This document shows positions 29,370 through 31,383 of a DNA stretch of 64,000 bases, in pieces. Origin of the DNA: Nostoc sp. NMS7. Lineage in GTDB: Bacteria > Cyanobacteriota > Cyanobacteriia > Cyanobacteriales > Nostocaceae. Position 1 is the stretch's first letter; every line of letters starts with the position of its first letter. The notes beneath the pieces were generated by a model. It worked only from the letters and a program-made list of their open reading frames with translations, was not told where the DNA came from and did not search any database. The translations under genes and the position numbers were made by a program. The DNA lies in NCBI RefSeq assembly GCF_017115085.1, contig NZ_JABXKJ010000239.1:1-64000 (forward strand), in the 5' to 3' direction.

Positions 29370-29408
29370 TTGTCTGTAGGTACTAACAAAAGTAAAGTTT
29401 TATAAAGT

Positions 29409-29447
29409 AAAAACCGTGGTTAAATTTTTGACACCCACGGTTTTTTT
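29409..29447 (+). terminator. Rho-independent-type terminator after the BI-1 gene
   Basis: The stem AAACCGTGG / CCCACGGTTT encloses an AT-rich loop and runs into T7 on the downstream side, about 40 bp after the stop codon. Confidence 0.8.
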
Positions 29448-29501
29448 CATCGCTTTAATAGTGGAATATGTAGATAAGTTCGGCCTCAGGTGAGCAAAAG
29501 G

Positions 29502-29969
29502 ATGCTAGAACTCTTAACTATCAAGCGCGAAGTAGAAAGATTGTCTAATATCTTGACCAAGGCTGAAGCCTGTCTTTGACCTCCGAGAACTGAGTGCAAA
29601 AATTGAGGACTTGAATCAATTAATTTCTGATTCTACTTTCTGGGATAATTCTGTCACTTTCTATCAGAAACTTGAAGAAATTGAATCACTCAAGGCTCAA
29701 AAGAAACAATATCAGCGATCGCACTAGCCCAAGGTGTCCAACAAGTTAATAAAATTCAACCTTGGCAGATAAAATCCCTATTCAACAAGCTCATCCGGAA
29801 ATATATCTTACATCCTTACATCAGGGTGAAAGATTTAGTTACCAATGTAGAAACACCTGCTGCGGCAGAAGTTTTGGACGGTGAAATTGATTTGTTTATC
29901 AAAGCCTATTTGCAACAGCAAAATCAAACCACTTCTGTTACCCAAGAAAGGCTTGATAATTTCAAGTAA
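29502..29969 (+). pseudogene. Decayed copy of prfB (release factor 2) retaining its frameshift site
   Basis: The N-terminal part reads MLELLTIKREVERLSNILTK, parallel to [20 protein letters not shown] of the intact gene. It then hits CTTTGAC (29574-29580), the RF2 frameshift site; the +1 frame continues DLRELSAKIEDLNQL and STFWDN as in RF2. After about 80 codons this frame stops, the SPF and GGQ domains are missing, and a second piece restores the RF2 C terminus (ILHPYIRVKDLVTNVET ... DGEIDLFIKAYL) up to 29969. It is a duplicated prfB with the middle deleted. It lies about 290 bp before the real prfB. Confidence 0.88.
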
Positions 29970-30004
29970 TTTTTGTAACTTAAACCTTATCTAAGTTGAG
30001 AACC

Positions 30005-30164
30005 GTAGTTTTCGCCCTCACCCTAAATCCCTCTCCCAGACATGGGAGAGGGACTTTGAAATTCTGGCTCCCCGAATCCCAAATCTGGGATTCGGGGTTG
30101 GGGGATGAGGGCAAATCCTTTTGATCACAGAAGAACTATAGGTTTCAAGATAGACGTGATTTAT
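30005..30164. repeat. 160-bp structured dispersed repeat, copy 1
   Basis: This shares its outline with 37131-37295: CGTAGTTTT, GCCCTCACCC, two hairpins, GGGGTTGGGGGATGAG, then TTTTGATCACNGAAGAA and TTCAAGATAGACGTG. The hairpins are CTCTCCCAGACATGGGAGAG and CCCCGAATCCC / GGGATTCGGGG. The outer arms GCCCTCA and TGAGGGC can also pair, giving a branched fold. It sits between the prfB relic and prfB. Confidence 0.85.
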
Positions 30165-30260
30165 ATAATTAGTGCGGAGAGAATTTGCCCAACTACAGCT
30201 AAAATTAATAAAGAGCAATTTTCAAATCCAAAGCGCTCTATCTCTCATTCAGCAAGCACT

Positions 30261-31383
30261 ATGGAAGTCTTAGAACTCAAACGCGAAATCGAAACGTTGT
30301 CTAGCCGCCTGGGTAAAACCCAGGACTATCTTTGACGTACCTGCACTGACAGCCAAAATTCAAGACCTGGAAAAAATATCCGCTCAACCAGAATTTTGGG
30401 ATAACCAAACCCAAGCCCAACAAACGCTGCAAGAACTCAACGACCTGAAAGCCCACCTCCAGCAATACGATCGCTGGCATACGAATCTAGAAGATACTAA
30501 GGCTGTTGTTGAGTTGTTAGAGTTAGAAACCGATGAGGCACTACTCCAAGAAGCGGAATCTACCATCACTAAACTGAATCGTGACCTGGATCAGTGGGAG
30601 TTACAACAGTTACTTTCTGGCCCCTATGATGCTGAAGGTGCTGTAGTGACAATTAATGCTGGTGCTGGTGGCACAGATGCTCAAGACTGGGCATTTATGC
30701 TGATGCGAATGTACACCCGTTGGGGTGAAGCTCACGGGTATAAAGTAACTTTAGCTGAAGAGTCGGAGGGTGATGAAGCCGGAATTAAATCGGCAACTCT
30801 AGAAATTACTGGTCGCTATGCCTATGGTTATTTGCGATCGGAGATGGGTACACATCGCTTAGTGCGGATTTCACCTTTTAATGCCAACGGCAAGCGACAA
30901 ACCAGTTTTGCAGGGGTGGAAGTGATGCCGCAGATAGATAACTCTGTGCAGTTGGATATTCCAGACAAGGATTTGGAAATCACCACAACTCGCTCTGGTG
31001 GTAAAGGGGGGCAAAATGTCAACAAAGTAGAAACGGCGGTACGGGTTGTTCACCTTCCCACCGGTCTTGCCGTGCGCTGTACAGAAGAGCGATCGCAGCT
31101 GCAAAATAAAGAAAAAGCCCTAAATCGTCTCAAAGCAAAGCTGTTGGTCATAGCCAAGGAGCAACGTGCCCAAGAAATTGCTGAAATTCGTGGCGATATG
31201 GTGGAAGCCTCCTGGGGAAACCAAATCCGTAACTATGTGTTTCACCCTTACCAAATGGTGAAGGATTTACGTACAAATACTGAAACAACCGGGATCGGCG
31301 ATGTGATGAATGGCGAACTTGATACATTCATCCAGGCTTATCTGCGCCAAGAAAATAAACTAGTGGAAAACACTCCAGCATAA
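30261..31383 (+). CDS. prfB: Peptide chain release factor 2, with programmed +1 frameshift
   Basis: Translation starts at ATG 30261 ([13 protein letters not shown]). After 24 codons it meets TGA at 30333-30335; shifting +1 at CTT-TGAC continues as [12 protein letters not shown] through to 31383, giving about 373 residues, the normal RF2 length. The main frame has the UGA/UAA-reading tripeptide SPF (in [11 protein letters not shown]) and the peptidyl-hydrolysis motif GGQ (in [13 protein letters not shown]). RF2 ends translation at UAA and UGA codons; low RF2 favours the frameshift, so the gene is autoregulated. An apparent upstream start at 30105 lies within repeat sequence and is not the true one. 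Confidence 0.96.
30321..30336 (+). promoter_or_regulatory. RF2 programmed +1 frameshift site
   Basis: The sequence CAGGACTATCTTTGAC matches the classic RF2 recoding site (slippery CTT before TGA followed by C). The upstream CAGGA could serve as a weaker internal Shine-Dalgarno-like element than the AGGGGG of E. coli. The +1 frame is needed to make full-length RF2. Confidence 0.93.

Follow-up and report, generated by a model that had tools for sequence, protein, structure and literature searches.

A deletion relic beside prfB in Nostoc and the old, largely GGQ-less RF2 paralog family to which it traces

The relic, the live prfB and the spacer between them

In the window, the 64,000-nucleotide stretch of Nostoc sp. 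NMS7 DNA that was analysed, we found the remains of an RF2-like gene at 29502-29969, and 291 nt after it an intact prfB. The original prediction had described a relic with its own CTTTGAC at 29574-29580 and a +1 frame that continues as RF2, a deleted middle with neither SPF nor GGQ, a surviving RF2 C terminus, and a live gene, also with CTTTGAC, about 290 bp further on. Each of these points was borne out, the first by both tblastn and DNA alignment. The features of the locus are as follows.

29502-29579, + strand: relic ORF in the zero frame, running from ATG to TGA; a homologous ORF precedes the heptamer in the paralogs
29565-29570, + strand: Shine-Dalgarno (SD)-like stimulator of the relic, altered to GAAGCC (GAAGGC or GAGGAC in relatives, by comparison with them)
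29574-29580, + strand: the relic's CTTTGAC heptamer for the +1 frameshift, read in the sequence
29578-29727, + strand: N-terminal piece in the +1 frame, the start of a PCRF domain by similarity to RF2, 49 codons and then TAG
29715-29725, + strand: deletion junction GCGATCGCACT, 11 bp, present in G044, G068 and G014 on either side of the stretch that the window lacks
29721-29969, + strand: C-terminal RF2 piece, 82 codons and then TAA (29967-29969), found by tblastn and the paralog profile
29983-30160, + strand: dispersed repeat of ~178 bp with two inverted repeats, between relic and prfB, found by genome search
30261-31383, + strand: live prfB, ATG at 30261, SPF and GGQ present; zero frame up to CTT 30330-30332 within its own CTTTGAC (30330-30336), +1 frame from 30334
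30308-30324, + strand: hairpin CCTGGGTAAAACCCAGG, ending 5 nt before the live heptamer; absent from the relic

The zero frame of the relic reads MLELLTIKREVERLSNILTKAEACL from the ATG at 29502 and is closed by the TGA within the heptamer, and the +1 frame reads as RF2 (DLRELSAKIEDLNQLISDSTFWDNS...) until the TAG at 29725-29727. When 29380-30200 alone was compared with live RF2 by tblastn, the N-terminal piece matched at E 1e-11 (43% identity, 49 aa) and the C-terminal piece at E 1e-18 (40% identity, 81 aa). In a whole-genome search, the paralog profile recovered the C-terminal piece at E 1.2e-38. At the DNA level, the N-terminal part and the live prfB share 63% identity over 141 nt, and their heptamers coincide at every base in the alignment, indicating that the similarity between relic and prfB reflects homology and not chance. 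A reading of the relic as one continuous protein was ruled out by its in-frame stops, and a profile of open copies was used instead.

To see the gene before it broke, one can look to neighbouring Nostoc, where a DNA search of 39 genomes identified a longer gene whose two ends correspond to the relic halves; the second RF2 that the prediction had proposed to look for in related genomes is present at this locus as a full-length RF2-like gene. The relic halves share 93-95% and 86-87% DNA identity with the copies of G010 and G004. In the three relatives G044, G068 and G014, the 11-bp repeat flanks the part that is missing from the window, which holds one copy of it; ~660-680 bp are missing between the repeat copies, whose starts are separated by 664 bp in G044. 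The repeat includes GCGATCGC, which we take to be the HIP1 octamer. Loss of the DNA between the repeats shifts the frame so that the +1 frame runs into the TAG at 29725-29727. From this arrangement, the relic is almost certainly dead through deletion, and SPF and GGQ are both gone. On the window branch omega is 0.60, a value that is separable neither from 1 (2ΔlnL 1.3) nor from the rest of the tree (0.33). The live prfB has an omega of 0.061 across 21 relatives.

As for the spacer, the flanks of relic and prfB join without the dispersed repeat in G004. A 901-nt query gave 25 matches in the window genome and, among the matches listed, all those beyond the locus correspond to the ~178-bp repeat.

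An RF2 paralog family beside prfB

We surveyed 53 genomes of the genus with a profile of seven open copies (profile A1, matches to E 1e-10, our tally), and we found that 30 carry a paralog that is full length or nearly so, 11 carry fragments and 12 have no detectable copy; in these 12, the profile found nothing beyond live RF2 and RF1 (in G057, RF1 only). The broken or fragmentary copies are those of the window, G002, G006, G007, G019, G020, G043, G047, G048, G058 and G064. Among the matches listed, stop-free full-length copies in frame occur in 14 of the 53 genomes (the one in G063 has TAG in its heptamer), and in 12 of the 53 a UGA at one shared codon is the sole in-frame stop, with G060 a partial match. 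The copies of G004 and G009 have the shared-codon UGA and an additional stop, the G059 copy has a UGA at another position, and the sole in-frame stop of the G021 copy is a late TAA in the tail. Outside the genus, a paralog is present in at least 23 of 164 other genomes of the family, a count that may miss weaker ones, and the G178 copy is a fragment. A sample of 148 genomes from the order added one more paralog, in G249, a member of another family, where it lies next to prfB. Second matches in G153, G094 and G317 were excluded because they lie on contigs other than that of the live prfB.

For comparison, we used 54 copies, 30 from the genus and 24 from elsewhere. In a FastTree phylogeny of 117 proteins (the 54 paralogs and 63 live RF2, all RF2 being from the same order), the paralogs form one clade with support 0.999 and no live RF2 inside it; the relic was too short and was left out. 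The root-to-tip length of the paralogs is ~3x that of live RF2, so that long-branch effects are possible. In the fetched stretches the paralogs adjoin prfB, save those of G083 and G087 (~4.3 kb apart) and G060, which is at a contig end. Judged from these sequences, what survives in the window comes from an old family of tandem RF2 paralogs, which spans two or more families of the order and has been lost repeatedly.

The prediction had left a choice between an old duplication and import of a foreign prfB. The old divergence stands, given the 54-paralog clade, and the tandem position beside prfB across genera together with the tree favours duplication. The large divergence from the live copy is what an imported gene would show; however, the paralogs group as a single clade within live RF2s of the same order, in a tree of that order only, and with the three exceptions above they sit beside prfB. 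We regard import as very improbable.

The family departs from RF2 at the motifs that define it. GGQ is absent in 53 of the 54 paralogs, four of which have NGQ, HGQ or DGQ in its place (G230, G080, G220, G249). In the G018 protein, compared with PDB chains of RF2, the loop is four residues short. SPF is retained in all 13 type-A Nostoc copies (those with Tyr in 12 cases and Cys in one at the shared UGA site) and in a number of copies in other genera, and it is replaced by SPV, SSV or SPL in 14 UGA-type copies. The stop-recognition motifs are partly lost, SPF being often changed and the domain 2 GG contact changed as well. Both the PCRF and RF-1 Pfam domains score above cut-off in 4/4 paralogs, with PCRF complete in 4/4, and all four fall below the cut-off of the NCBIfam prfB model TIGR00020 (308-346 bits vs 370). 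A structure model was too weak to use (mean pLDDT 58.7). The window gene had been called a dead second copy of prfB; dead it is, but the loss of GGQ in 53 of 54 relatives and the partial loss of the stop-recognition motifs argue against a copy of an ordinary prfB.

One locus, L037 (G001), is the sole paralog of the 54 with GGQ (GRGGQNANK), and it has SPF too; it could be ancestral or recombinant.

Frameshift site, second UGA and selection

The frameshift heptamer contains a stop in all 54 paralogs (CTTTGAC in 50, CTTTAAC in two, CTTTAGC in two). CTTTGAC is present in 63/63 live genes, although these were gathered via a stop-bearing heptamer pattern and a live gene without such a site would go uncounted. 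Of the 54 paralogs, 52 were found by protein match and not by the heptamer; the heptamer pattern was used for the other two, G249 and the second copy in G200. An SD-like triplet is found in 38/54 paralogs and 58/63 live genes. The 24 nt upstream of the heptamer fold at <= -8 kcal/mol in 63/63 live genes (from several families, many near-identical), but at even <= -5 kcal/mol in only 9/54 paralogs, and the hairpin upstream of the live prfB heptamer may be a cyanobacterial frameshift stimulator. The paralog frameshift is likely to be in use.

The two CTTTAGC sites, which carry a stop read by RF1 only, belong to L041 (G063) and L143 (G200). They are notable because TAG occurs in the prfB frameshift site in 0 of 8,164 prfB genomes in the available text of an mBio 2025 survey (PMC12421855). 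At L143, two tandem paralogs lie ahead of prfB.

Of the 30 genus copies, 14 have a second in-frame UGA, always at one codon. Its context is GGC-UGA-C in 12 of 13 aligned copies (followed as CUR in 11 and CUC in one) and GGC-UGA-AUA in G009. The residue at this site is Tyr, Cys, Phe or Leu in other copies, and in G063, whose kin have the second UGA there, it is Trp (TGG); with these residues, Trp at the UGA would fit. Plain read-through, probably by tRNA-Trp, fits the second UGA best, and in the genomes with UGA-type copies the codon may well be read through, although we stop a little short of calling this probable. Selenocysteine was rejected as the inserted residue, as tRNA-Sec scores above the Rfam cut-off in 0/53 genus genomes; sub-cut-off matches occur in 53/53 genus and 14/14 control genomes, and five of the controls score above the cut-off. 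A suppressor-tRNA pattern gave matches in 6/53 genomes and is not interpretable. Constraint on the second-UGA codon alone is not claimed (P = 0.036 without G063, 0.14 with it).

We then asked the sequences for purifying selection in two groups of 13 copies. In the type-A copies, omega is 0.445 (2ΔlnL 91.4 vs omega = 1). In the UGA-type copies, omega is 0.567 for the part before the UGA and 0.372 for the part after it (2ΔlnL 89.5); the part after the UGA has an omega of 0.354 on terminal branches (2ΔlnL 61.7) and its first 70 codons one of 0.342 (2ΔlnL 32.5). Beyond the UGA, the 13 full-length UGA-type copies contain no stop, as compared to 37.7 expected if neutral; the decayed UGA-type copy of G019, with 2 TAA in its 132-335 piece, is outside this count. 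The selection sets leave out G060 (a partial match), G064, G020 and fragments, and G001, G065, G063 and CHAB5844 (= G181) are in neither group. Copies recombine, which weakens tree-based tests: those of G013 and G014 contain the UGA segment, yet their place in the protein tree is a different one. This worry is limited for the 70 codons that directly follow the UGA, as among Nostoc copies that stretch is typical of the UGA type. Selection on the paralogs is far weaker than on RF2 (omega about 0.45 vs 0.06). Taken together, these data make it very likely that an old GGQ-less paralog is maintained by selection in many genomes.

With omega below 1 in both halves, the UGA-type gene could also be two separate proteins, the second made by re-initiation near the UGA, so that no read-through is needed. 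However, no in-frame ATG, GTG or TTG close after the UGA is common to the 13 UGA-type copies: a start lies at codon 12 or earlier in three (G022, G013 and G014), and none lies within 60 codons in G052. We consider this improbable.

A broader alternative is that the family as a whole consists of decaying duplicates whose function was lost long ago, with lineage-by-lineage deletion, and that the apparent selection is left over or was spread by recombination. Among the 53 genus genomes, 11 have a fragment and 12 no detectable copy, a pattern that looks like such decay, as do the extra stops in G004, G009 and G059 and, in other genera, in G156, G157, G083, G087 and G224; omega is moderate, and the persistence of the second UGA is not significant (1 change in 14 copies vs 3.4 expected, P = 0.14). 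In contrast, omega is well below 1 even on terminal branches, the UGA-type copies have the zero stops given above, the frameshift stop persists in 54/54 despite the loss of GGQ, and in other genera the reading frame of many copies remains open. We regard general decay as unlikely, though less so than re-initiation.

A possible role on the ribosome and known relatives

We consider it fairly probable that a deletion killed the relic, that it belonged to an old family of cyanobacterial RF2 paralogs, which we name pseudo-RF2, and that the intact members of this family act as follows. Pseudo-RF2 would be synthesized only at low RF2 activity on UGA, via the +1 shift that RF2 itself uses; it would fold like RF2 and enter the A site, and would be unable to release the chain. 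As a non-hydrolysing competitor or placeholder, it would slow termination at UGA, and it may thereby raise the RF2 set point or protect stalled ribosomes. In part of Nostoc, the second in-frame UGA would also be read through, most likely as Trp, making expression doubly dependent on weak RF2. That pseudo-RF2 is a non-releasing ribosome ligand that tunes RF2 is a tentative proposal, and its binding in the A site at UGA is uncertain because the stop-recognition residues are partly lost (the domain 2 GG, and SPF in the UGA type). Somewhat more doubtful is the fuller scheme, a gene recoded twice in series, by +1 at CUU-UGA-C and then by UGA read-through, with both steps sensitive to RF2 and gating a GGQ-less RF2 mimic that acts on termination. 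If true, output falls approximately as the square of RF2 activity, which would make a steep RF2-shortage sensor from release-factor parts.

Pseudo-RF2 shares with bacterial RF2 (prfB) the order PCRF then RF-1, a CTTTGAC site with an upstream zero-frame ORF, and the tandem neighbour; it differs in the loss of GGQ, the altered domain 2 GG contact and often SPF, the mostly absent upstream hairpin, and the TAG in 2/54 heptamers. The autoregulatory frameshift is kept and the catalytic motif dropped, which separates two features that are usually coupled. Such a family would be a natural test of a non-releasing RF2 in the cell, and the UGA-type Nostoc gene may be a case in which bacteria conserve UGA read-through of a chromosomal gene.

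The plant plastid protein PrfB3 is likewise an RF2 paralog without GGQ and SPF, and it left termination for RNA stability, stabilising petB transcripts (PMC5897788, available text). A comparable role off the ribosome, as an RNA-binding protein, would suit the UGA-type copies, which lack SPF as well as GGQ. However, SPF is kept in 13/13 type-A copies and the +1 site couples expression to RF2. PrfB3 also differs from pseudo-RF2 in that it is encoded in the plant nucleus and has an established role on RNA, and that text mentions no +1 site for it. We consider an RNA-binding role for pseudo-RF2 quite unlikely.

Closer to the proposed ribosome ligand is the hibernation factor Balon, a GGQ-less release-factor relative that sits in the A site, indicating that such a protein can act as a ribosome placeholder; Balon is an archaeal-type aeRF1 relative and not of the RF1/RF2 type (PMC10901736, in the portion available). 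The paralogs do not belong with Balon by their matches, which are PCRF and RF-1 in Pfam and RF1, RF2, RFH and mitochondrial relatives in the PDB. RFH (PrfH) is also an additional bacterial class-I release factor, but it keeps GGQ and lacks domain 1 (PMC1586002, available text); pseudo-RF2 is the reverse. Four paralogs score 39-91 bits against the RFH model TIGR03072, below its cut-off of 166.65.

Among the open-licence papers listed by our searches, we found no description of the pseudo-RF2 family, and the family is unmentioned in the available text of PMC12421855, PMC3711429, PMC6514570, PMC5897788, PMC1586002, PMC13092985 and PMC10901736. GGQ-less RF2-like genes are easily mistaken for pseudogenes.

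A smaller feature recurs in the C-terminal third of L005, L008 and other paralog loci, where a 7-codon mini-insert (AMPTAGYAYA) is in-frame and on or off among copies. It resembles a small dispersed repeat.
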